From contig JAYELL010000005.1 of the NCBI GenBank assembly GCA_034717495.1, positions 1-54,440 of the forward strand: a stretch of 54,440 nt of DNA. Direction: 5' to 3'. The stretch is from Chloroflexota bacterium (lineage in GTDB: Bacteria > Chloroflexota > Anaerolineae > JAAEKA01). Both the position numbers and the translations under genes were made by a program. Under the pieces are notes generated by a model, which was given only the letters and a program-made list of their open reading frames with translations, did no database searches and had not been told where the DNA came from. Positions 3,186-45,896 of this stretch are shown piece after piece. The stretch's first letter is position 1, and every line of letters begins with the position of its first letter.

Positions 3186-4091
3186 TTACCCCTTCACCGC
3201 CCCCACCGTCAGCCCCTCGATGAAGTAGCGTTGGGCCAGGAAAAAGATGACGAGGATGGGCGCGGCCATGACCACCGACATGGCCATCATGTAATGCCAC
3301 TTGGGTGCCTCGTTGGAAATCGATCCCTGGAAGAACTTCATGGCCACCACCAGCGGGAACTTGAGGGTGGTGTTCAGGTAGATCAACGGTCCCTCGAAGT
3401 TGTTCCAGTTGCCCTGGAAGATGAGCACGCCCAGGGCCAGCAGTGCAGGGCGGGCCAGAGGCAGCATGATGCGGCTGTAGACCTGGAAGGTATTGGCGCC
3501 GTCGATAATGGCCGCCTCCTCCATCTCACGGGGAATCGTGAGTAAATACTGGCGCATGAAGAAGATGGCCCAGGCGCCGCCCCCAAACCAAATCCGCACC
3601 GTCAACGGGTCGAAGGTGTCGATCAGATCGAGGTTTCGCCAGATCAGAAATGTCGGGATCAGGGTGATGATCGACGGCAGCATCATGGTGGCCAGCATGA
3701 TAATGAACAGGATGTTGCGGCCGGGAAAACGAAAGCGGGCAAATCCGTAGGCCACCACTGAAACGGCGATCAACTCAGCGGTCATGGCCAGCAGGGTGAT
3801 GAAAAGGGTGTTGAAGAGGATCCTCCAGAAGGTCAGGCCCGGTGCAATGCTGCTTAGCGCTGCAAAGGCATCGCCGTAGTTCTGCCACATGATGGGATCG
3901 GGTATCCACTGGATGGGCCAGGCGAAAAGCTGCTGTTCGCTCTTGAGCGAGGTGGAAATCATGTAGAAGAGTGGAACGAAGACAAACAGGGAGAAGAGAA
4001 TCAGCAGCGCATAGGTGATGATATTCGTCACCGTGCGCCTGGCGCTTACCCCAAATCTCGGTTTGTCCACACTGACAGGTGTTGTTGTCAC
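3186..4091 (-). CDS. Carbohydrate ABC transporter permease, MalG/UgpE type
   Basis: This 301-residue inner-membrane protein has six predicted membrane segments, the first at about residues 22-45. The permease-ATPase coupling EAA loop is visible as [21 protein letters not shown], and the C-terminus is the family's usual GLTVGAVKG. It would pair with the upstream MalF-type permease to form the channel of a sugar importer. The start is GTG 4091 after AAGGTAGG, nine bases after the preceding stop, so the two permeases are translationally close. No ATPase gene accompanies them, so a shared ATPase encoded elsewhere is implied. Confidence 0.92.
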
Positions 4092-4100
4092 GCAATCTAC

Positions 4101-5105
4101 CTACCTTCGTTCGCCTTCATAGTAGACCCAAGCGGCCGAGGATTTGAAAACAAGCAAGGTTATCAACAGAATAAGGATTAACTGGAACCAGGCGATGGCT
4201 GAGGCGTAGCCCATGTGCCGGAACTGGAAGGCCTCCCGATAGATCAACACATTGAGAAAGGTGCCGGCCCGCCGCGGAATCTCGATGAAAAAGGCCTGGG
4301 TGAAGATCTGCAGCGAGGCGATAATGCCGGTGATCACAACGTAGAACAGCGTCGGGCTGAGCATGGGAATGGTCACGTAGCGCAACTTCTGGCCCTGGTT
4401 GGCGCCGTCCAGGTCCGCGACATCGTACAGGTGCCTGGGGACGTTCTTGAGGCCGGCCAGCAGGATGATCGTGTTGGCACCGAAGACACCCCACATGCCC
4501 ATGATGACGAAGGAGGGCAGCACCAGGTCGGGGTCGGTGAACCAGGCCAATGGCTCCATGTCCAGCGCAGCGTAGATTGGGCTCAGCAAGAAGTTGATAA
4601 GGCCCGAGGAGGGGCTGAGCATCCAGCGCCAGAGCAAGGCCACCGCAACTACGGGCAGTACGGCCGGCAGGTAGTAGATGGTGCGCCAGACGCCGATGCC
4701 CTTGATGTCCCGGTTGAGGATCAATGCAACGCCCAGCGCGCCGAGGGTGCCCAGAGGCACGTTGAACAACGAGTAGAGAATCGTCAGTCGCAGCGAAAGC
4801 CAGAACTGCTTGTCCCCTGTGAACATCTTGACGTAGTTGTCGGTGCCAATCCACTGGGCCGGCTGCAGGATGTTGTATTGGGTGAAACTGAGATAGAGGG
4901 AGCGTGCGAAGGGGTAGAGGATCCAGATGCCAAGCCCCAACAACCAGGGCAGAACCAGTGCATAGCCGGTTGCCGTTTCGCGCTTGACGCCGAACGCCAC
5001 CAGGGCACGGTTTAAAAGCACCATGCTCAGACCGATTGCTGCTCCGACCAGAATCCAGTGCAGCAGGGTTGAGCCGTACGCGTCCCAGAAGGATAGTTCG
5101 ATCAT
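4101..5105 (-). CDS. Carbohydrate ABC transporter permease, MalF/UgpA type
   Basis: This 334-residue inner-membrane protein has the MalF-type layout. An extra N-terminal hydrophobic segment (residues 10-35) precedes the six-segment core starting at [17 protein letters not shown]. The EAA loop reads [21 protein letters not shown]. It is 56 bases downstream of the duplicated binding-protein gene, separated by a strong hairpin. The ATG at 5105 has no clear Shine-Dalgarno sequence, so translation may depend on readthrough of the leader or on coupling. Together with the next gene it makes the membrane channel of the importer. Confidence 0.92.
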
Positions 5106-5121
5106 CGGGTGGGGGTTGCCC

Positions 5122-5148
5122 GTAGGGGCGGGATAACCCCGCCCCTAC
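5122..5148 (-). terminator. Hairpin between binding-protein and permease genes
   Basis: An 11-bp perfect inverted repeat, GTAGGGGCGGG (5122-5132) and CCCGCCCCTAC (5138-5148), has a five-base loop and no U-tract. It lies just after the binding-protein stop. Such hairpins commonly cause partial termination or protect the upstream mRNA, so that binding protein is made in excess over permease. Confidence 0.65.
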
Positions 5149-5161
5149 ACCAAATGTTTTG

Positions 5162-7672
<2,511 letters not shown>

Positions 7673-36019: not shown

Positions 36020-36841
36020 TCAACTATCTGGTTGTCCAGTTTCCCCTGGTGCGGCTGCGGCACGAAGTTTTTGCATTCCTTCCTGGAGGACTTCCTGGAA
36101 CATCCATATGTCTGACGAGAAGGTAGCAATCATCATCCCCCGTTCAATCCAGTGTACCAGGCGTTCAGTGTCGGGTAAATGCAAGCCCCAAGGCATGGTG
36201 TGGGCTTCACAAGTGGCTACTATGCGTTCAAGCATATGCTCGGCCAGGGGGTCTTTGGTGTTGCCAGCCACACCGAGTGAGAGGGCCAGGTCGTCCATGC
36301 CAATGACTACGCCATCGATACCGGGCACGGCAATCATCTCCGGCAAGGCCTCGACGCCTGCCTTGCTTTCAATCTGAATGAAGTTGAGGAGATTATCGTT
36401 TGCCCACCGGACATATTCACGAAAATCGATCTCGGCGAAGTCGACGTGGGCGGCCAGGCGGCTGAATCCGCGTTGACCCATCGGCGGGTACTTGCTGTAG
36501 CGCATGATCTGCCGCACCTGGTCCGCGCACTCCACCCGCGGGGTCATGATGCCCTGAGCACCGGCGTCTAACAGGCGGGCGTACATGTGGTATTGGGTAT
36601 CCGGCACACGCACGAGGGGGGTAATGCCGGCGAGACGAGCGACTTGGATGAGGTCGGCGGCGGTCTCAAGATTGTATGGCCCATGTTCCATATCGAGGAA
36701 AACGAATTCCAGGCCATAGTTGGCCAGGAGTTGAATGATCGCGGGCGCACGCACCTGGACGATCATGGTGCCGATCACTACACGGCCATCGGCAAACGCT
36801 TGTTTGATGGGACTTGAGACCAGGCCTGGTCCTTTTTTCAT
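36020..36841 (-). CDS. HpcH/HpaI-family aldolase
   Basis: This 273-residue cytosolic class II (metal-dependent) pyruvate aldolase has the family motifs FVFLDMEHGPYN (catalytic and metal-binding region), TPLVRVPD, LLDAGAQGIMTPRVE and QIESKAGVEALPEM. Relatives are 4-hydroxy-2-oxoheptanedioate aldolase and 2-keto-3-deoxy-L-rhamnonate aldolase, which split 2-keto-3-deoxy acids into pyruvate and an aldehyde. It starts one base after the dehydrogenase stop and is the last gene of the cluster. Its presence suggests that the imported compound is turned into a 2-keto-3-deoxy acid. Confidence 0.92.
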   Translation of the reverse strand: MKKGPGLVSSPIKQAFADGRVVIGTMIVQVRAPAIIQLLANYGLEFVFLDMEHGPYNLETAADLIQVARLAGITPLVRVPDTQYHMYARLLDAGAQGIMTPRVECADQVRQIMRYSKYPPMGQRGFSRLAAHVDFAEIDFREYVRWANDNLLNFIQIESKAGVEALPEMIAVPGIDGVVIGMDDLALSLGVAGNTKDPLAEHMLERIVATCEAHTMPWGLHLPDTERLVHWIERGMMIATFSSDIWMFQEVLQEGMQKLRAAAAPGETGQPDS

Positions 36842-36842
36842 G

Positions 36843-37874
36843 TCAATCCTCGAAAACTCCCCAGCGCTCTTCTGCCCTGGGCCGCACCGACTGGTTGACG
36901 ATGGTGGGAGGCCAGCAGTTAAGCAACAATTGGGCTGCGATTCCCGCGCTATTGCGGTAAAGCATATCCACGGCAGAAACTGAATAACTGGCGACGTGGG
37001 GCGTCACCAGAACGTTCTCCATACCATACAAGGGGGAGTCTGCCGGCAACGGCTCCTTTTCGGTCACATCCAGGCCGGCTGCCAGCAATTTGCCCGATTG
37101 CAGCGCTGTCACCAATGCTTGCTCGTCAACTACCGCGCCGCGGCTGGTGTTGACGAGCACCGCGCCTGGCTTCATGGCGTCGAATGCCGCTGCATTCAAG
37201 AAATGATAGGTTGCATCTGTGAGCGGCGTGTGGATGGTCACGAAATCGGAGCGGTGCAACAGTTCCTCCAGGGGTACCTTCTCCACGCCGCAGGATTCCA
37301 TGTACCCGGAATCGATATAGGGGTCGGCTGCGATCACCGTCAGGCCGAAGCTGCGCAAGCGCCTGGCAATGGACTGGCCAACGCGGCCAAAGCCGATCAA
37401 TCCCAGTGTTTTTCCATGGATTCGCACACAGGGGATGGCGCTGAGACGGTGCCATTGGCGATTGATTGCCCGACGATTAAGGGGAGCCAGGCGCCGGGCG
37501 CAGGCGAAAAGCAAGGCGATGGTGTGTTCTGCCACCTCTTCGGTGCACCAATCTGCCACATTGCTGACCAGAATACCAAATTCAGAAGCGATTCCAACGT
37601 CGATCGAGTCATAGCCGAGGCCCATGCGGATGATGCCGCGACATCGGGTGAGGTGGGGGATTGTGTGCCGGTTCAGGAGGGGGCGGACCGACTGGATCAT
37701 GACCACATCCGCGTTTTTGGCCATCACCACCACCGATTCCTCGGTGCGCTGTTGGCCGATCTTCAACTCAGCGCCCGCGTTGCCCAGCGTTTCAGCCATA
37801 TCGGCCAGGGAAGCTGGCGTGATATCAAAGAGATCCGAGTCATAGTCAACCAGGGTCACACTGTAACGGGCCAT
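36843..37874 (-). CDS. D-isomer-specific 2-hydroxyacid dehydrogenase
   Basis: This 343-residue NAD(P)-dependent enzyme has the Rossmann motif GLIGFGRVGQSIARRL, the catalytic Arg region VNTSRGAVVDEQALV, a Glu in DVTEKEPLP and a catalytic His in TPHVASYS. Relatives include phosphoglycerate and glyoxylate/hydroxypyruvate reductases. AAGGAG precedes ATG 37874. Beside an HpaI aldolase it could reduce the aldehyde-derived or 2-keto product. Confidence 0.92.
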   Translation of the reverse strand: MARYSVTLVDYDSDLFDITPASLADMAETLGNAGAELKIGQQRTEESVVVMAKNADVVMIQSVRPLLNRHTIPHLTRCRGIIRMGLGYDSIDVGIASEFGILVSNVADWCTEEVAEHTIALLFACARRLAPLNRRAINRQWHRLSAIPCVRIHGKTLGLIGFGRVGQSIARRLRSFGLTVIAADPYIDSGYMESCGVEKVPLEELLHRSDFVTIHTPLTDATYHFLNAAAFDAMKPGAVLVNTSRGAVVDEQALVTALQSGKLLAAGLDVTEKEPLPADSPLYGMENVLVTPHVASYSVSAVDMLYRNSAGIAAQLLLNCWPPTIVNQSVRPRAEERWGVFED

Positions 37875-37904
37875 TAGCTGTCGTCACTCCTTCTGCAACA
37901 TTTG

Positions 37905-37930
37905 CCGATTCGCCATTCGCTGATTCGCCC
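37905..37930. repeat. Short heptamer repeat between permease and dehydrogenase genes
   Basis: CGATTCG, CCATTCG and CTGATTCG follow one another, the same style of repeat as in glpA and at the right edge of the window. Confidence 0.6.
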
Positions 37931-37942
37931 GCTGCCAACCCC

Positions 37943-38818
37943 CTACCCCTTGATCCCTACCATGACCATGCTCTGCATCACCCAGCGTTGCATGAAAATG
38001 AACATGATGAGAAGCGGCAGCATGCTGACCAGCGCGCCGGCAGCGACCAGTGTGTGCTCGACATAAAATGCGGTGCTGAAGACCTGGAGACCCACGGTGA
38101 TCGTCATCATCTCCTGGCTGCTGGCCATGACCAGCGGCCAGAGGAAATCATTCCAGGCGAGGATGGTCTTGAGCACGGCCACGGTTACGAAACCGGGAAT
38201 GGTCAGGGGCAAGGCGACGCGGAGAAAGATCGTGAACTCACGGGCACCGTCCACGCGGGCGGCGTCGATGTAGTCGTCGGGAATGCCTTCCATGAATTGC
38301 CGCATGATAAAGACCCCGAGGACCGTCATCCAGTTGGATCCGACAATACCGGGGTAGGTGTTGGTCAGGCCGACGCTGTTGAACATGAGGTAAAGGGGAA
38401 CGACGGTGATCTCGGGTGGCATCATGAGCAGGGCGATGACCGAGAGAAACAGCAGCTCCTTGCCCTTGAAGCGCAATTTGGCGAAGGCATAGCCGGCCAG
38501 CGAGGCAAAGAACAGGCTGGAGATCACCGACAACGTGGTGACGATGACTGAATTGAGCAGCCATCGGTCAATCGGATACTCGCTGAACAACGTCTTGAAG
38601 TTCTCGAAGTAGAGCCAATTGTCCGGCAGCCAGGTCATGGGAATGCGGTTGACCTCTTGCGGGTGTTTCAAGGCCGTCAGAAGGGTCCACAGCAGGGGCC
38701 AAAGCATGATCAGCAGTCCAACCATTGAAAACAGAAACAGAGAGATCCTGCCCAGGCTGTGTGACCACCGATGCCTGTGTGGAGCGCTGTTCGTGTGCTT
38801 ATCGGGTGATGTTACCAT
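37943..38818 (-). CDS. Carbohydrate ABC transporter permease, MalG/UgpE type
   Basis: This 291-residue inner-membrane protein has six predicted membrane segments and the EAA loop DAARVDGAREFTIFLRVALP, and ends in MVMVGIKG as is usual for the family. It follows the MalF-type permease by 15 bases. The pair forms the channel for the Tat-lipoprotein binding protein of this cluster. Confidence 0.93.
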   Translation of the reverse strand: MVTSPDKHTNSAPHRHRWSHSLGRISLFLFSMVGLLIMLWPLLWTLLTALKHPQEVNRIPMTWLPDNWLYFENFKTLFSEYPIDRWLLNSVIVTTLSVISSLFFASLAGYAFAKLRFKGKELLFLSVIALLMMPPEITVVPLYLMFNSVGLTNTYPGIVGSNWMTVLGVFIMRQFMEGIPDDYIDAARVDGAREFTIFLRVALPLTIPGFVTVAVLKTILAWNDFLWPLVMASSQEMMTITVGLQVFSTAFYVEHTLVAAGALVSMLPLLIMFIFMQRWVMQSMVMVGIKG

Positions 38819-38833
38819 GACGGTTCATGCAAC

Positions 38834-39820
38834 TCAATACTCGATCTGGCGGGAGAGGACGCGGCGCTGGAGTAGCGTCAGTGCCAGGATGAGCACGAAG
38901 AGCACGATCGCGGCGGCGGCGGCCGTGCTCATGTGAAAATACTGGAAGGCCGAATCATAGATGTGCAGCACAACGGTGCGGCTGGCGTGGGCAGGGCCGC
39001 CCTGAGCCGCGATGTAGGGCAGGTCGAACGTGCGCAGTGAGGTGATCACCTCCAGAATGATAACCAGTACGAGCTGCGGATTGAGCAGCGGGAAGGTGAT
39101 GTGCCTGAACTGTTGCCAGCGGCTGGCGCCATCGATAGAGGAGGCGTCGTAGTAATCGTTGGGGACGCTCTCAAGCCCGGCCACGAAGATGACCATGGCA
39201 AAGCCCAGGCGCGCCCAGACGTACATGATGGAGAGGGAGGGCAACACCTGCGCTGTGTCGTTGAGGAAACCTTGCTCCGGCAACCCCAGCGATCGCAATA
39301 TGTTGTTGAGCAGACCGATCGAGGGGTTGAACATCCATTTCCAGACGAAGGCTACCGCCACCAGCGAGACGATCAAGGGCAGGAAGTAGCCTGCCTTGAA
39401 AAGGTTGCGTCCCGGGAGCCTGGTGCGGGATTGGAAGGCCAGGGCCGCGAGCAGGGCAAAGAAGACCGTCATCGGCACGCTCAGCAGGGTGAAGATCAAA
39501 GTGTTGACCAGGCTCTTGCGAAAGAGAGGGTCGGTCAATAGCTCAACGTAGCTCTGCAAACCCACGAAATCTCCGAATCCGTGGATGTTCCAGTTTCTGA
39601 CGCTGAGAACGATAGTGTACGCGGCAGGGATGAAAAAGATAATGATGATGTAGATGAGAGTTGGCAGGGTGAACAGGTAGCCGCTACGGGCCTCGCGGTA
39701 GGCGGTCGTGCTGCCTGTGATCACGCCAACAATGTAATTCCTGGTGCCCCACGGCTTTTTGGAGCCAGGCGGGCCACTTTGCCCAGAGGATACGTTTCTG
39801 CCGGCATTGGCCGTGGTCAT
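38834..39820 (-). CDS. Carbohydrate ABC transporter permease, MalF/UgpA type
   Basis: This 328-residue inner-membrane protein has a polar N-terminal tail of about 45 residues, then six membrane segments starting at GYLFTLPTLIYIIIIFFIPAAY. The EAA loop is YDASSIDGASRWQQFRHITFP. The ribosome binding site before ATG 39820 is weak. No ATPase is encoded in the cluster. Confidence 0.93.
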   Translation of the reverse strand: MTTANAGRNVSSGQSGPPGSKKPWGTRNYIVGVITGSTTAYREARSGYLFTLPTLIYIIIIFFIPAAYTIVLSVRNWNIHGFGDFVGLQSYVELLTDPLFRKSLVNTLIFTLLSVPMTVFFALLAALAFQSRTRLPGRNLFKAGYFLPLIVSLVAVAFVWKWMFNPSIGLLNNILRSLGLPEQGFLNDTAQVLPSLSIMYVWARLGFAMVIFVAGLESVPNDYYDASSIDGASRWQQFRHITFPLLNPQLVLVIILEVITSLRTFDLPYIAAQGGPAHASRTVVLHIYDSAFQYFHMSTAAAAAIVLFVLILALTLLQRRVLSRQIEY

Positions 39821-39912
39821 TGTGGGTTTCCGTGGTGGTTGTCTTGAGGGGTTCGTGGATCACGCATGGAGCCGGCAACCAACCTCATGCGTGATCCAAC
39901 ATGTGACAAGAA

Positions 39913-41265
39913 TCAGCCGCAGGGCCCCTTATCCATGACCTTCTGCATGTCGGCAGCTGCTGCGTCCAACGCTTCTTTGGGATCTGATTTCTGAAGCAGG
40001 ATCTCTTGAATCGCCTGGGCATGGCGATCACCCAGCTCCTGGTGGCGCGCATGGGTATAAAGCGCCTCAACGTAGTTCTCCGAGGCGTAGGCCAGCGCAT
40101 CGTAGTCGGCGCGGGCCTGCATGTGCTCGGAGTCGGTGTTTTTGGTCCAGGCCACTGGCGAGCCGTTGAGCTTGGAGGCTTCGAGGTCGCCTTCCTGGGT
40201 GGCCACGGCCATGCGGATGAAGTCCCAGGCCGGCTCCTTCAGCGGGCTGAATTGGTTGACCATCATTGCCCAATCAACCACGCCGGTGGCGCCCATGCCC
40301 TCATCAACCTGGCGGGGGATGTGGGAGACCTTGTAATTGATGTCGGGCGCGTTGTCGGCCAGCCAGCCAACCATGAAGGACTCGCGGAAGAACATGGATG
40401 CCTGTCCGGCCGCGAATTGCTGCTCGGGTTTGCCCAGCGTGATGCTGGAGATGTTCTCGTCCACGAGCCTGCGAGCGAACTCGAGGGCCTCGACCGCTTC
40501 CGGGGAGTTTGCGACATCCGCGGCCTGGCTGTTCTCCAGGTCGTAGATACGGGCACCAAAGGCATGCAGGAAGGGGATGATCTTGCTGCCGGTGCCGGCC
40601 CCGCGGGCGTCGTCGTAGCGATGAGCGAAGCCGGAGCGGGTGACGTTTCCGGCGTCATCGCTCTGGGCAAGGATCTTGGCATATTCGTACAACTCATCCA
40701 TGGTCTCCGGTGGGCCTTCGAGACCGGCCTCGGCGAAGTGATCGGTGTTGTAGAACAGCATGCTGCCCAGGCCGTTGGTGGGGCCATCGGGATAGCCGTA
40801 CCAGGTGTTGTCGTACTTCATGACGTTGTGAAAGGCTGGGATGATCTCCGCTTCCGCCAGTTCGACCAGGTCGGCGGGCATGGGATCGGCCACGCCTACG
40901 CAGCCGGCCCACGGCGCCACCAGGCCGACGAAGATATCGGGGGCGTTCTCCCTGCCGGCGAATGCTGCCAGGAACTTGGCCTCGAAACCGACGAAGGGGT
41001 ACTCGACCATATCGACCTCGATGTTAGGGTACTTTTCCTGGAACTCGGGGATGATGGTCTCGAAGTAATCGAAAGCGTCGTAGTGATTGTCGATCGGCTG
41101 CCAGAAGGTCAGGGTGCCGGAAAGCTCGCCCGGGGCCGCGGCCGGCTGAGCTGGAGCCTGAACTACTGGCGCAGCACAACTGCTGATGAGGGGCATGGCG
41201 ACCGCAGAGCCGACCGTGAATGCGCTAATCCGGAGGAAATTGCGCCGGGTGACTGGTTTGGACAT
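39913..41265 (-). CDS. Family 1 sugar-binding protein, Tat-type lipoprotein
   Basis: This 450-residue protein has a twin-arginine motif (TRRNFLRIS, residues 6-14) and a lipobox (LISSC, Cys30), pointing to Tat export and lipid anchoring, whereas the other binding proteins in the window have ordinary Sec signals. The domain is of the UgpB/MalE type (GTLTFWQPIDNHYDAF, EKYPNIEVDMVEYPF). AAAAGGAG precedes ATG 41265. It is transcribed from a strong promoter with a GntR-type operator and heads the transporter half of the cluster. Confidence 0.92.
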   Translation of the reverse strand: MSKPVTRRNFLRISAFTVGSAVAMPLISSCAAPVVQAPAQPAAAPGELSGTLTFWQPIDNHYDAFDYFETIIPEFQEKYPNIEVDMVEYPFVGFEAKFLAAFAGRENAPDIFVGLVAPWAGCVGVADPMPADLVELAEAEIIPAFHNVMKYDNTWYGYPDGPTNGLGSMLFYNTDHFAEAGLEGPPETMDELYEYAKILAQSDDAGNVTRSGFAHRYDDARGAGTGSKIIPFLHAFGARIYDLENSQAADVANSPEAVEALEFARRLVDENISSITLGKPEQQFAAGQASMFFRESFMVGWLADNAPDINYKVSHIPRQVDEGMGATGVVDWAMMVNQFSPLKEPAWDFIRMAVATQEGDLEASKLNGSPVAWTKNTDSEHMQARADYDALAYASENYVEALYTHARHQELGDRHAQAIQEILLQKSDPKEALDAAAADMQKVMDKGPCG

Positions 41266-41452
41266 AGTGGAACTCCTTTTTTCCGTGGGAATATGCGGTG
41301 AGAGGGACTAGCCAGAAAAGCAAGGCGACGGATCGGCAGTCAGGCCCAATAGGCACCTCCTTGCGCCAGGGCGACTTGCCGCGCCCGGGCGGAGCGTAGC
41401 AAAAAAGATCCTTCCGGATCGGAGTTGAACTGCGTGGGCAATATATCGTATG

Positions 41453-41462
41453 TGGTATACCA
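41453..41462 (-). promoter_or_regulatory. Predicted GntR/FadR operator before the transporter genes
   Basis: The perfect 10-bp palindrome TGGTATACCA lies three bases downstream of the -10 box. The wider 19-mer ATCGTATGTGGTATACCAG (41445-41463) is repeated before the regulator gene at 45848-45866 with only small differences. FadR-subfamily operators have this GT...AC form. Confidence 0.75.
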
Positions 41463-41464
41463 GA

Positions 41465-41493
41465 ATTATACCAGAAGGCTGGTTCGTTGTCAA
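41465..41493 (-). promoter_or_regulatory. Consensus promoter of the transporter half of the cluster
   Basis: On the minus strand, TTGACA (41488-41493), a 17-bp spacer and TATAAT (41465-41470) are a full consensus match. A leader of about 190 bases precedes ATG 41265. Confidence 0.85.
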
Positions 41494-41520
41494 CACCTTT
41501 TTTCACAAATGGTCCTCCGG

Positions 41521-42777
41521 TCAGCATCGGATGGGGTATTTTCCGAAGCGGCGCGCGGCAGCAAGCATGGTATCCAGGTTTTTAGGCGGAACATCCATCA
41601 GCACGGAGTTCGAGGTGCTGAACACGTAGCCACCACCGGGCGCAACGGCTTTCATCAGCTTGACCACCTGGGCCTCGATCTGATCCGGTGTTCCTCGCAC
41701 CAGCAGATCGCAGTCCAGGTTGCCCAGCAGGGCCAGCCGGTCGCCGTACTGTCGCTTGAAGGCGAAGATGTCCATGTTGGCGCCCGGTTCCAGGGAATGC
41801 AGGCCGTCAATGCCCACATCATCGACGAGAACCGGCAGATGGGAGCGGAGATCGCCGTCGCCATGCTTGATGTACTTCAAACCGCAGCGGTGGGTTTCGT
41901 CCACGATCCGTCTGAGATAAGGAGCGATCAGCTCGCGCAGGTGGCGCACCGAGAAAATGGGCCCGGCCTTGAATGCCCAGTCATTGCCGCCCGTGATCCC
42001 ATCCACCCCGAGGTCAGCCTGAGCCCGCACCAACTGGACGATTCCTTCTGTTGTCACCTCCATATACCGGTGAACGAGTGCAGGTTCGCACACCATCGCC
42101 ATAAGGAAGTCCGTGACGTGGGCGGTAGAGCCTGGGTAGCATACGTCGCCCCAGCCCAGGACAAAGATATTTTCCGCCAGCGGGTGTTCGACCGCCTGGC
42201 GGATTCCGTCCAGCGCATCTCGCAGTGGTTCGGTGCTGAGATCGATTGGACGGTCTTCCAGGACTTCGATGTAACGCCTTAACTCGTCGATGCCGCCCTG
42301 CTTGATCGAATCGTCGGCATCTGCCAGGATCTCGCTTTCATCGATATAGATGTGCCGGGACCAGAATCCGTCCGGGTGTTTGATAATCCAGGTGTCAGGA
42401 TTGGGTTGCTGATAACTCACCTCCAGCAATGCGTTTGGAGCCCAGTTCCCGGAACCGAACGCAAAGGGTGTGAGGAAGTCGGTGGGGCGGACGCGCACCA
42501 TGTCGAAGCCCATGTGGTCGTAGAAGGTCATGGTGTCGTCGACGATACGACTGATCACGGCGCGCCGGGCGCTGGGCCCGCTGGCGTTCGCCTCCAAAAC
42601 GGCCCGGATTGTGCGACCGCCCCCCGTGGGCAGCAGGATATCCCGGTTCATGATCCGGCGTGCGACCGCGTTGTGAAAGCCCAGCTCCCAGATCGGGACG
42701 CGGTCGGCTTCCTGAAAGGAAAGTGCTAACCGGATCCTTTCCTTACCGGACAGCCCATCAGGCTTGCCGTTCTTCAT
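41521..42777 (-). CDS. Uroporphyrinogen-decarboxylase-family protein (1 of 3)
   Basis: This 418-residue soluble protein has a URO-D/corrinoid-methyltransferase TIM-barrel fold: DRVPIWELGF, GGNDWAFKAGPIFSVRHLRELIAP, YIKHGDGDLRSHLPVLVDDVG, DGLHSLEPGANMDIFAFKRQYGDRLALLGNLD. In MtaA-type methyltransferases zinc is held by His-x-Cys-Gly-Asn; here the site reads HGDGD, with Asp in place of Cys, so classical thiol methyl transfer is doubtful. GGGAG precedes ATG 42777. The gene is the third URO-D-like one in a row; tetrapyrrole synthesis is unlikely because no other haem or cobalamin gene is near. Confidence 0.85.
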   Translation of the reverse strand: MKNGKPDGLSGKERIRLALSFQEADRVPIWELGFHNAVARRIMNRDILLPTGGGRTIRAVLEANASGPSARRAVISRIVDDTMTFYDHMGFDMVRVRPTDFLTPFAFGSGNWAPNALLEVSYQQPNPDTWIIKHPDGFWSRHIYIDESEILADADDSIKQGGIDELRRYIEVLEDRPIDLSTEPLRDALDGIRQAVEHPLAENIFVLGWGDVCYPGSTAHVTDFLMAMVCEPALVHRYMEVTTEGIVQLVRAQADLGVDGITGGNDWAFKAGPIFSVRHLRELIAPYLRRIVDETHRCGLKYIKHGDGDLRSHLPVLVDDVGIDGLHSLEPGANMDIFAFKRQYGDRLALLGNLDCDLLVRGTPDQIEAQVVKLMKAVAPGGGYVFSTSNSVLMDVPPKNLDTMLAAARRFGKYPIRC

Positions 42778-42825
42778 GGTGTTTCTCCCAAGTCTATGTG
42801 CCTGGATTTAGCAGCCAATGCGAAA

Positions 42826-43926
42826 TCATGCCCGGCCCCGCGTGCGCCAATCTGCCGGCGTTGCGCCGATGGCCATGCGGGCATCGAAGTAGGCTGCAAT
42901 GTTTTCCATGGGCAGACCGCTGTGAAAACCGCCGCCTGTGGCGAGAGCAAAGCCTGGGATATCTTTCGCCACCGAAGTCACGACATTGACTTCCGCCTTG
43001 ATATCATCAGGGGTGCCGAAAGCCAGGGTTCTGGTGCTGATGCCGCCAATCATGAACTGTCCTGGCGAACCAAAGTGTTCGATGACAGCTTCGACAGGAG
43101 TCAGAGGCGCCTCCCACATCAAGCCGTCAACGCCGGCATCGACCAGCTGCGGCAGAAAGGTGGTCATATTGCCATCGGCCACGAAGATGATCTTCTTGCC
43201 GCGTTGCCTGGCCGGTTCGAAGATCGTCGGGTAGTGGGGGAAGATGTAGTCATCGTACCAGGCCGGATTGAACATGGGCCCGGTGGCCGATGCCAGGTCG
43301 TCATGCACAAAGATGAATGGCGAGTCAGAGGCCATCGCCATCTCGGCCACGATGGCCATCGATTTTGCCACGCATGGCAAGAGGACATGGTCGTGGAACC
43401 GGTCAGGCTCCAGAGCAGCGGCCACCATGAAATTTTCCCAGCCCAGCGTCTCCACGGGCCACATGAACAGGGTCGTGTAGAGCATGGGATAGTACATGCC
43501 TGCATCGCCGACAAAGTCCTCACGTGCCGCGATATCAGCAGCTTTACAGGGGTGAGGCACGGGTGTAACCAGATCTTCGTAGCGCAGGGCCTCCGCGTCA
43601 AGGTCCCAGATCTCATCTGGGCAGTTGGCGGCATAGGTGTGGCGCATGGCCGTATCGTAGACGCCCAGATGGGCCAGGTTGTAGGGCGCACCGAGCAGGA
43701 ACCGGGTCTCGCCGGCCGGCGTTGGTGCAGGAGCATTCTCCAGCGGCACCCGATTGATGATGTCGATGCCGAGGGCTTGATAGGCTCGCATGAAGCCCTC
43801 GGCCGTGTGTCGATACACATCCAGACCGGTGACCAATTCGATCAGGCCCTGGTGATTCAAAGTTTCCTTGGAAACCAGTTTACCGCCAGGTTGCCCTGCC
43901 GCCCAGGCCAATACATCCGATTTCAA
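42826..43926 (-). CDS. Uroporphyrinogen-decarboxylase-family protein (2 of 3)
   Basis: This 366-residue soluble protein starts at TTG 43926, which overlaps the TGA of the preceding gene, with GGAGAAAA upstream. URO-D fold features are HDDLASATGPMFNPAWYDDYIFPHY, KIIFVADGNMTTFLPQLVDAG, DGLMWEAPLTPVEAVIEHFG and MIGGISTRTLAFGTPDDIK. The zinc-ligand motif position reads VADGN, without the His and with Asp replacing Cys. The paralogues in this cluster are distant from each other, so they are not a fresh duplication. Function unknown. Confidence 0.85.
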   Translation of the reverse strand: MKSDVLAWAAGQPGGKLVSKETLNHQGLIELVTGLDVYRHTAEGFMRAYQALGIDIINRVPLENAPAPTPAGETRFLLGAPYNLAHLGVYDTAMRHTYAANCPDEIWDLDAEALRYEDLVTPVPHPCKAADIAAREDFVGDAGMYYPMLYTTLFMWPVETLGWENFMVAAALEPDRFHDHVLLPCVAKSMAIVAEMAMASDSPFIFVHDDLASATGPMFNPAWYDDYIFPHYPTIFEPARQRGKKIIFVADGNMTTFLPQLVDAGVDGLMWEAPLTPVEAVIEHFGSPGQFMIGGISTRTLAFGTPDDIKAEVNVVTSVAKDIPGFALATGGGFHSGLPMENIAAYFDARMAIGATPADWRTRGRA

Positions 43927-45041
43927 GACGTTTTCTCCCGCGCAAGGTTGGGCTTGGCTGTTTTTGATTTTTCAGAAATATATGCCATTACCCCTCGGCC
44001 CTCTTCGACCGAGTCGGCCTTCATGTGCACCATCAGGCCGGCCGGCGAGAGGCCATCCATGATCTCCTCGTATTCGTCGAGGCTGAAGCCAAAGAAGACC
44101 TCGCGCGCAAGAATTAACGGCATTTTCAGTGCCTGCAATTTACGCAGGGTGGGCATGGCATCCTGTAAAGTGATCGTCTGCGAGTCGAAGTAGAAGTTCA
44201 TGGCTCGCACGTTGGGCACTGAGGCCAGGGTCTCAGCCAGGTGAAGGGAGGGGATATGCAGATGCAGGGTGCCAAACGGGAAGCTTGAAATCCGCCGGAA
44301 TGGTTTCAGGAAGAACTGGCGGTAGTGGGCCTCCGACATCATGCTCGACGTGTCGTCTTGCAGCCAGGGTGCGGCCTCGGGCGCCCACAGGCCGAACTGG
44401 CGCACGCCGTAGCCGCCGCGGTAGCGGGGCAGTATCTTGGCCTGGGCCCGGGCCACATGTTGCCAGAGCTGGGCAGCTTCGGCAGCCAGGCGCGTGATGG
44501 CACCTGGATCGTCGAACATGGTGTAGAACAGACCCTCGCTGCCCAGCAGCGCAATAAGGATGTCGGCGGGGCCGCGCAGATGGCTGAAGCTGACCGCATA
44601 ACGGCCTTCCACGTGCTCGATGACGGTTTGCATCACGGCCATCAGTTTCCGGAACCAGGGATTGTCCGACGAGAAGTTGATGGAGGTGCGAGCCGTGGGA
44701 TCCAGCGGTTGCCCGGGCCACAGGCTCTTGCCTTCGGGCACCAGCACCCGGCAGCCGGCCATAGCCTCCAGCCAGGGCACTCCCAGGAGGCATTCGGCCA
44801 CGGCCACCATATCATCGCCGATCAGTTCGCGGGCCGCGGCGACCCGGTCGTATTCGGATAGCAAGGCGCCGGGATCGATGCTGTCAGGGCTGAGTTCGCC
44901 CTGCCCCATTGCCCGCGCCGTCAACTCGGTGTCCACGTAAGCATCGTAGACCACGCCGATCAGGGGCCGATCTGCCGGTTCACATGCCCAGAACGCCCGG
45001 TGGCGACGTTCGAGTTCGTTCCAGTCGCGGGTTTCGGTCAT
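43923..45041 (-). CDS. Uroporphyrinogen-decarboxylase-like protein (3 of 3)
   Basis: This 372-residue soluble protein starts with RDWNELERRHRAFWACEPADRPLIGV, a common opening of URO-D-like proteins found beside sugar transporters. The last third has TLHLHIPSLHLAETLASVPNVRAMNFYFD, where normal members carry HxCG. It is the most divergent of the three. It is the first structural gene after the regulator, 73 bases downstream, with AGGAAG about 12 bases before ATG 45041. Function unknown. Confidence 0.8.
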   Translation of the reverse strand: MTETRDWNELERRHRAFWACEPADRPLIGVVYDAYVDTELTARAMGQGELSPDSIDPGALLSEYDRVAAARELIGDDMVAVAECLLGVPWLEAMAGCRVLVPEGKSLWPGQPLDPTARTSINFSSDNPWFRKLMAVMQTVIEHVEGRYAVSFSHLRGPADILIALLGSEGLFYTMFDDPGAITRLAAEAAQLWQHVARAQAKILPRYRGGYGVRQFGLWAPEAAPWLQDDTSSMMSEAHYRQFFLKPFRRISSFPFGTLHLHIPSLHLAETLASVPNVRAMNFYFDSQTITLQDAMPTLRKLQALKMPLILAREVFFGFSLDEYEEIMDGLSPAGLMVHMKADSVEEGRGVMAYISEKSKTAKPNLAREKTS

Positions 45042-45114
45042 CGTCGGGACACTTCCTGATCAGTGTTTTACAGGGAGTCGTCGGCGTCGGGTTATAATCG
45101 CAAGGGCTAACTGT

Positions 45115-45816
45115 CTACGAGCCTGCTCTCAGCATACGCAGGGAGCGGTTGAGGGCGTTTTCGGTATGGTGAGCAAGGCTTTCTTTGGCCGTTTGGGGAT
45201 CGCCGGAGTTGATGCACTGCACCAGATCAACGTGCAAGTCCAGGGTCTTATTCCAGTCATAGGCGCCGGCGTGCCAGGCCACGAACATGAATATGGGACC
45301 TAACATGGAGTCTAGCACGTTGACCAGGTGGCAGTTGTTGGCCTGGTGCCAGATCAGCCGGTGCATCTCCAGATCGCTGTGAGTGTAGGAGTCGCTATCC
45401 TTTTCGGCTACTGCTTGTTCCATCTCGGCAAGTTTGGCCAGGAGTGCGCTGCGGTTCTTGGGGTTGGTGTTTTTCGCCGCCAACTCGACGGCCAGCATCT
45501 CCAGCGTCAGGCGCACCTGGTACAGCTCTGTAACATCCCGTTCGGACAATTCGATGACGTAACGGCCATTGGGTTTGGAGATGACAAGCCCTTCCTGCTC
45601 GAGCTGCATCAGCGCATCACGAGCGGGCGCGCGGCTGATGCCCAGGAGGTCCGCCACTTCGCGCTCGACCAACTTGGTGCCGGGAGCGAAATGGCCGCCC
45701 GTGATGTAGGAGCGCAGGAGCTCGGTGGCTTGATCCTTCAGCAGTGTTCTTTCAAGACGGGGCGCAGCGCTAGGTCGGTTGTTGAGGAGTCTGGAGAGAT
45801 TGTTGGAGCCGTTCAT
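45115..45816 (-). CDS. GntR-family transcriptional regulator, FadR subfamily
   Basis: This 233-residue DNA-binding protein has an N-terminal winged helix-turn-helix (EREVADLLGISRAPARDALMQLEQEGLV) and a C-terminal FCD domain with the Asp/His pattern for metal and ligand binding (DLEMHRLIWHQANNCHLV, LAHHTENALN). Such regulators usually bind organic acids or sugar acids. It probably represses itself and the transporter promoter through the palindromes at 45856 and 41453. The three URO-D-like genes would be cotranscribed with it. Confidence 0.92.
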   Translation of the reverse strand: MNGSNNLSRLLNNRPSAAPRLERTLLKDQATELLRSYITGGHFAPGTKLVEREVADLLGISRAPARDALMQLEQEGLVISKPNGRYVIELSERDVTELYQVRLTLEMLAVELAAKNTNPKNRSALLAKLAEMEQAVAEKDSDSYTHSDLEMHRLIWHQANNCHLVNVLDSMLGPIFMFVAWHAGAYDWNKTLDLHVDLVQCINSGDPQTAKESLAHHTENALNRSLRMLRAGS

Positions 45817-45855
45817 TGTGATTCACCGGCGCGAAAACGTATCGTATGTCGTATG

Positions 45856-45865
45856 TGGTATACCA
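45856..45865 (-). promoter_or_regulatory. Predicted GntR/FadR operator before the regulator gene
   Basis: The palindrome TGGTATACCA lies just downstream of the -10 box, flanked by CGTATGT direct repeats. It is the same element as at 41453-41462. Confidence 0.75.
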
Positions 45866-45867
45866 GT

Positions 45868-45896
45868 ATAATAACATAGGGTTCTGCTGCTGTCAA
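45868..45896 (-). promoter_or_regulatory. Promoter of the GntR-family gene
   Basis: On the minus strand, TTGACA (45891-45896), a 17-bp spacer and TATTAT (45868-45873). It has the same layout relative to the operator as the promoter at 41465-41493. Confidence 0.8.

Follow-up and report, generated by a model that had tools for sequence, protein, structure and literature searches.

The window analysed here is a stretch of 54,440 nucleotides from a Chloroflexota bacterium (contig JAYELL010000005.1 of assembly GCA_034717495.1). Its region 36020-45816 carries nine minus-strand genes: gntR, uroC, uroB, uroA, and the genes for a solute-binding protein (SBP), permease A, permease B, a dehydrogenase (DH) and an aldolase. 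A first-pass annotation made from the letters alone had counted ten same-strand genes, one more than we find. The -35 box of its first promoter starts at 45896. In what follows, L### denotes DNA stretches and G### genomes, G000 being the source genome and C5 the contig of the window. The features of the cluster, in the order of transcription, are as follows.

45868-45896, minus strand: promoter P1, TTGACA-17-TATTAT (11/12 in a consensus scan), TG before the -10 box, upstream of gntR-uroC-uroB-uroA
45849-45866, minus strand: putative operator copy 1, CTGGTATACCACATACGA, containing the palindrome TGGTATACCA; exact 18-nt match to copy 2
45115-45816, minus strand: GntR/FCD-family regulator (Pfam GntR 1.7e-14, FCD 3.4e-23)
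43923-45041, minus strand: UroC, divergent URO-D (uroporphyrinogen decarboxylase) superfamily protein with an HLHxxS loop (H260, H262), from an iterative profile and AlphaFold2 fold
42826-43926, minus strand: UroB, URO-D family, VADGN loop with the metal His lost (Pfam URO-D 1e-14)
41521-42777, minus strand: UroA, URO-D family, KHGDGD loop (H305, D307) (Pfam URO-D 3.3e-28)
41465-41493, minus strand: promoter P2, TTGACA-17-TATAAT (12/12 in the same scan), TG before the -10 box, upstream of SBP-permeases-DH-aldolase
41446-41463, minus strand: putative operator copy 2, the same 18 nt as copy 1 (exact match)
39913-41265, minus strand: SBP, extracellular lipoprotein with a Tat signal at its N-terminus (SBP_bac_1 4.7e-23)
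38834-39820, minus strand: CUT1-type permease A (BPD_transp_1 4.2e-18; best NCBIfam GlcT/UgpA, below cut-off)
37943-38818, minus strand: CUT1-type permease B (BPD_transp_1 3.3e-18; best NCBIfam GlcU/UgpE, below cut-off)
36843-37874, minus strand: DH, D-isomer-specific 2-hydroxyacid dehydrogenase (2-Hacid_dh_C 2.1e-62)
36020-36841, minus strand: HpcH/HpaI-family class II aldolase (PF03328 3.7e-30)

The Pfam domains of the cluster are GntR with FCD, URO-D (in UroA and UroB), SBP_bac_1, two BPD_transp_1, 2-Hacid_dh and HpcH_HpaI, and the gaps between successive genes, from gntR to the aldolase gene, measure 73, -4, 48, 255, 92, 15, 68 and 1 bases. P1 and P2 are the two best sigma-70 promoter-like sites of the region, and directly 3' of the -10 box of each lies CTGGTATACCACATACGA, which has only these two exact copies in the window. 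Because both promoters carry an identical operator, the URO-D genes and the importer, DH and aldolase genes probably form a single GntR regulon that is transcribed in two units. The regulator has the helix-turn-helix (HTH) and FCD domains of the GntR/FCD subfamily, the palindrome TGGTATACCA stands at P1 and P2, and the GntR protein probably binds this shared operator. The first-pass view that these genes belong together is upheld by the operator and by the recurrence of DH, UroC, UroB and the aldolase in another Chloroflexota genome (G047). Between P2 and the SBP gene (window 41420-41407, minus strand), a short stem runs into six T and may be a leader terminator; stem-plus-T-run sites are no more numerous in the region than in shuffled sequence.

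All three proteins that had been assigned to the URO-D family belong to the superfamily (PF01208 fold): UroA and UroB by Pfam (99 and 55 bits, cut-off 23.9), and UroC by profile and fold. UroC has no Pfam or NCBIfam match; it is reached at 5e-22 by iterative profiles built from UroA, and the first 15 PDB matches of its AlphaFold2 model (pLDDT 92, pTM 0.91) are MtbA of Methanosarcina mazei and UroD structures. Profile and fold search together rule out that UroC is an unrelated protein. MtbA is also the best PDB fold match of the UroA model (pLDDT 87), so that the methylcobalamin:coenzyme M methyltransferases MtaA and MtbA (4ay7/4ay8) provide the closest solved fold for both UroA and UroC. Alignment with MtbA and HemE fragments bears out the two unusual loops reported from the letters alone: KHGDGD of UroA aligns to HICGN of MtbA, giving the ligands H305-x-D307 with Asn in the third position and a second loop TSNS, and UroB reads VADGN, the metal His being gone. 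UroC has LHLHIPS (HxH) at the metal-site position. MtaA, MtbA and Mlp bind zinc through His-Cys-Cys and come with a corrinoid protein and an activase of their own, whereas UroA, UroB and UroC have HxD, xxD and HxH loops. Membership in these families is ruled out by the His-Cys-Cys test (loops HGDGD, VADGN and HLHIPS), and the family scores are 46-62 bits for UroA and 24-51 bits for UroB against cut-offs of 235-600. Like this cluster, mlp gene clusters of type 1 contain three URO-D paralogues (PMC10418091).

In the methyltransferase 1 (MT1) proteins of O-demethylases, the Cys ligand or ligands are swapped for a carboxylate or a non-ligand (PMC10418091), and UroA, with H305-x-D307 and Asn in third position, has this pattern. 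The rule does not discriminate for UroB and UroC, both of which depart further than UroA. The URO-D-family chloromethane methyltransferase CdmB functions without zinc (PMC13222342). We placed UroA in a tree of 78 URO-D proteins, built by a quick method and containing many long branches, where it forms a clade of support 99 with L020_10, L033_11, L164_8, L165_2 and L166_9, mostly KHxDGN proteins. The nearest relative found, L164_8 (G033, 40% identical), is accompanied by a CUT1 importer, a GH38 glycoside hydrolase, a methyl-tetrahydrofolate:corrinoid methyltransferase (MT2) and MetF. This MT2 scores 285.9 bits against an NCBIfam cut-off of 259, and its best PDB match is 4o0q, identical in sequence to 4o1e/4o1f; 4o0q/4o1e is the ligand template used for the MT2 CdmA (PMC13222342). 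L165_2 adjoins a GH1 gene, and L020_10, from the source genome itself, has an MttB-family neighbour and importers, a CUT1 importer among them, flanking both sides. Such neighbours suggest that methyl groups are transferred during sugar breakdown. Given its ligands and relatives, we propose that UroA may be an O-type corrinoid methyltransferase acting on a sugar methyl ether, with its partner supplied in trans. The MttB-family (trimethylamine methyltransferase-like) gene lies at L020:13046-14506 (G000:C50), immediately before a KHSDGN URO-D gene in a sugar-importer cluster.

The source genome has 43 Pfam URO-D matches. Among 48 aligned URO-D proteins, which include two UroC-like types (the window's clade) lacking Pfam support, the loops are HxDG in 21, HxCG in 13, a His-less DG in four, HxH in three and other in seven. 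HxDG is thus the commonest loop of this genome, and the UroA variant is no isolated oddity. Genes near members of this URO-D class encode CUT1 importers, L-fucose isomerase, alpha-L-fucosidase, GH1, GH31 and GH38. The sugar or methylated sugar suggested as substrate by the first-pass annotation fits these surroundings, and we favour a methylated one.

Corrinoid genes occur elsewhere in the source genome, with five corrinoid proteins (PF02607), two RACo reactivases (PF14574) and three pterin-binding proteins; one of its stretches (L047) carries a set of homocysteine methyltransferase, corrinoid protein and RACo. Several URO-D proteins of the HxDG type are linked to such genes directly. L028_6 is a single chain of B12-binding_2, B12-binding and URO-D, with loops KHSDGN/SSNS as compared with KHGDGD/TSNS in UroA. 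In the source genome, L029 has a YHTDGA URO-D protein followed by MetF and a methyl-tetrahydrofolate:corrinoid methyltransferase, the latter over its NCBIfam cut-off. L191 and L193 have the order corrinoid protein, URO-D, permeases. Three genomes (L036, L174 and L192) share a module of CUT1 importer, corrinoid protein, URO-D (HTDGK) and L-fucose isomerase, which, going by its gene content, is the clearest candidate for O-methyl-fucose demethylation. A corrinoid partner encoded nearby, which the first-pass annotation had named as evidence against its own proposal of a new reaction, is absent from the window and present beside relatives, whether fused, adjacent or as MT2 and MetF. The B12 partner genes in related clusters suggest that the URO-D proteins demethylate methylated sugars. 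The L028_6 fusion gene (L028:5028-6833, G000:C85) adjoins a DeoR-type regulator and genes resembling a ribose-type importer.

The association extends to 60 class-level genomes, in which URO-D candidates were counted from a loose first look. RACo is present in all 24 genomes with at least 10 URO-D candidates and in 23 of the 36 others (Fisher p=8e-4), and URO-D candidate counts correlate with RACo (Spearman 0.60) and with corrinoid proteins (0.56); the presence/absence table of corrinoid proteins alone gives p=0.07.

The relatives of UroB and UroC also occur in sugar-related contexts. UroB groups with xxDGN proteins (support 100 in the same tree), and four of its relatives, from the G027 family, lie in stretches with alpha-L-fucosidase (L102, L105) or fucose isomerase with GH31 (L103), along with LacI regulators and importers. 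More distant UroC-type genes (about 30% identity) stand near CUT1 permeases in L106, L111, L113 and L023 of the source genome. A UroC-type gene in L107 is separated from a corrinoid gene by about 5.6 kb. We regard UroB and UroC as diverged URO-D paralogues; their function is less certain than that of UroA and forms the weakest part of our model.

The Tat-anchored sugar importer of the first-pass annotation is confirmed. The N-terminus of the SBP, MSKPVTRRNFLRISAFTVGSAVAMPLISSC (MSKPVTRRNFLR...LISSC), has the Tat motif TRRNFLR and a lipobox, and SBP_bac_1 together with two BPD_transp_1 permeases identifies a CUT1 sugar ABC importer; the cluster contains no ATPase gene, and a shared ATPase encoded elsewhere is presumed. 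A second CUT1 importer lies in the window at 3186-7672 on the minus strand, with an 836-aa binding protein of two tandem SBP domains; other SBPs of 822-941 aa occur in L036, L039 and L174. The closest solved relative of the aldolase is 3qz6 (5.6e-42), whose title names no function. The aldolase shares the PF03328 fold of the pyruvate-aldol enzymes HpaI, GarL and YfaU (RhmA), but scores far below each equivalog cut-off (HpaI 134 versus 369 bits). Its family and the presence of the DH suggest pyruvate plus an aldehyde as the final products of the carbon skeleton.

Starting from gene content, shared operators, URO-D folds, the ligand substitution, and partner genes in the genome and beside relatives, all of which are observed, we lean slightly towards a reading of the cluster as a two-transcript GntR regulon for the import and breakdown of an O-methylated sugar or sugar acid, with UroA as a methyl-ether:corrinoid protein methyltransferase whose partner is encoded in trans. 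In this model, the GntR protein would repress both gntR-uroC-uroB-uroA and SBP-permeaseA-permeaseB-DH-aldolase. Import of the compound would fall to the Tat-exported lipoprotein together with both permeases, the shared ATPase coming from elsewhere. UroA, with His305 and Asp307 in place of His-Cys-Cys, would pass the methyl group to a corrinoid protein whose gene lies in another part of the genome and whose activity RACo would maintain; from this protein the group would move to tetrahydrofolate (through MT2 and MetF) or homocysteine. UroB and UroC perhaps serve other methyl positions or act as metal-free methyltransferases, and the DH and HpaI-type aldolase would turn the sugar acid so released into pyruvate plus an aldehyde.

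Several observations weigh against this model. Contig C5 has no match to PF02607, PF14574 or the pterin methyltransferase family PF00809, which agrees with the first-pass statement that no corrinoid protein or reactivase is nearby. The corrinoid protein, MT2 or activase expected in the same cluster as an O-demethylase is missing from the window and found with the UroA relative in L164 and with other HxDG members, and most HxDG paralogues are without an adjacent corrinoid gene. Since the window and most HxDG paralogues lack neighbouring corrinoid genes, use of a partner in trans is only assumed. UroB is without the metal His, and UroC carries an HxH loop instead and is not closely linked to corrinoid genes. 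The HpaI aldolase and the 2-hydroxyacid dehydrogenase are not obvious steps following demethylation of a neutral sugar. The RACo correlation is uncorrected for phylogeny and anaerobic lifestyle. Finally, the orthologous clusters of G047 and G012 carry BNR/sialidase-like genes and oligopeptide-type transporters and no such CUT1 importer.

These two genomes are the only ones among 150 class-level genomes with UroC orthologues, and the UroC profile, when run against the entire collection, again matched only the same two contigs, labelled Chloroflexi. UroC, whose orthologues there are 61% and 58% identical and share numerous invariant polar residues, shows the highest conservation among the three Uro proteins. 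The gene order in G047 (L099) is aldolase, DH (56%), UroC, four BNR_2, UroB-type and oligopeptide-type ABC ATPases, and that in G012 is UroC, UroB-type, BNR_2 and URO-D (HTCGN). Strict co-conservation of all nine genes was not found in these clusters: UroC, UroB, DH and aldolase recur in G047, and UroC and UroB in G012. The first-pass expectation that the URO-D genes are conserved together with the importer thus holds for the UroC/UroB core and fails for the CUT1 importer, the nearest transporters being oligopeptide-type. The DH alone is no marker of the system, because the stretches fetched around its homologues of 47-50% in other genomes (L167-L173) contain no URO-D or corrinoid gene. The four tandem BNR_2 (sialidase-like) genes of G047 span L099:10921-16095, with single ones in G012 (L100, L101), and those examined are without an evident signal peptide. 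As a guess, such genes would fit a 2-keto-3-deoxy sugar acid.

An alternative, which we consider rather unlikely, is that UroA, UroB and UroC are corrinoid-independent lyases or isomerases that perform a new reaction on an imported sugar acid (for example decarboxylation, epimerisation or C-C cleavage), the aldolase splitting the 2-keto-3-deoxy product. The missing corrinoid gene in the window, the two of three loops that are not recognisable zinc sites, and the closest cluster, L099, which keeps UroB, UroC, DH and aldolase with four BNR_2 genes and no corrinoid gene, would all fit such enzymes, as would a LarA-like racemase gene and MR_MLE enolase-superfamily genes near other URO-D paralogues. 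However, UroA shares its loop pair with a corrinoid-fused protein, its nearest relative adjoins MT2 and MetF, and the URO-D expansion accompanies RACo; we also know of no URO-D superfamily member with a sugar-acid reaction of this kind. The corrinoid and RACo genes of the genome and the contexts of the relatives therefore weaken the corrinoid-free reaction put forward in the first-pass annotation, which may still hold for UroB and UroC with their atypical loops.

It is also conceivable, though unlikely, that the operon is mixed, with UroA a corrinoid methyltransferase and UroB, UroC or both inactive binding or regulatory paralogues. Conserved fusions of LacI and URO-D with decayed loops do exist in the class, UroB is without the metal His and UroC is without an HxCG or HxDG loop. 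Yet the strong conservation of UroC and its invariant polar residues in the orthologous clusters suggest catalysis, and the fetched stretches L102-L105 contain UroB-type proteins that have no HxDG partner there. Action of these proteins on porphyrinogens in an accidental neighbourhood, for which the URO-D fold would speak, is very improbable, since the HemE equivalog gives 26.3 bits for UroA against 302.95 and no match for UroB or UroC, the importer/aldolase operon shares the operator and sugar genes adjoin the family throughout; the scores and the sugar-gene context rule out a haem or tetrapyrrole role.

The favoured methyl-transfer model resembles the corrinoid O-demethylases MtvB, OdmB, VdmB and MtoB and the CdmBCA chloromethane system, which UroA matches in its URO-D fold and altered or absent zinc ligands. 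Those systems combine a URO-D superfamily MT1 with a corrinoid protein, an MT2 and an activating enzyme, and close UroA relatives adjoin MT2, MetF or corrinoid genes. Their known substrates are aromatic methyl ethers or haloalkanes. The present cluster differs in its context of sugar uptake and glycoside degradation, in a corrinoid partner that would act in trans, and in combining three distinct types of URO-D protein. Many glycans of plants, algae and microbes are capped and protected by methylated sugars. The route known to us for taking the methyl ether off a sugar is a P450 that requires oxygen. In marine bacteria, this P450 oxidatively demethylates 6-O-methyl-D-galactose (PMC10033563). 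Both routes would free an imported sugar of its methyl ether for normal catabolism; the P450 depends on oxygen and yields formaldehyde, whereas the system described here would be an oxygen-independent methyl transfer. While URO-D corrinoid methyltransferases are already known, we found no report that assigns sugar-methyl removal to the family: the open-access literature searched, which leaves out most subscription journals, held none on such enzymes with sugar substrates, and nothing relevant on URO-D with sugar importers, Lentisphaerae expansions or corrinoid sugar demethylation.

More broadly, and more tentatively, the diversified URO-D set of Chloroflexota could be an oxygen-independent corrinoid toolkit that O-demethylates the methyl sugars of glycans, with UroB (xxDGN) and UroC (HxH) representing new catalytic classes, possibly free of a metal site or not transferring methyl groups; we hold this to be somewhat doubtful. 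If methyl transfer from sugars is correct, it would account for the dozens of 'uroporphyrinogen decarboxylase' genes beside sugar importers in anaerobic-type Chloroflexota, widen the reach of corrinoid O-demethylation from aromatics to carbohydrates, and caution against a haem-biosynthesis annotation of such genes. UroA, L028_6 and L036_7, with their own corrinoid proteins and RACo, would then be the targets for assay.

The LacI-URO-D fusions join a LacI HTH and sugar-sensor to URO-D at L026:1392-3695 (G000:C105), L196:110-2476 and L195:768-2855, with further matches in frames of 726-786 aa in G105, G005, G083, G020, G058, G099, G019 and G062. Their metal loops are decayed (HTVG in L026_2, HTAG in L196_1), and they are close kin of corrinoid-linked URO-D proteins. 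Judged by these sequences, the fusion is likely a methyl-sugar-sensing regulator derived from an inactive demethylase.

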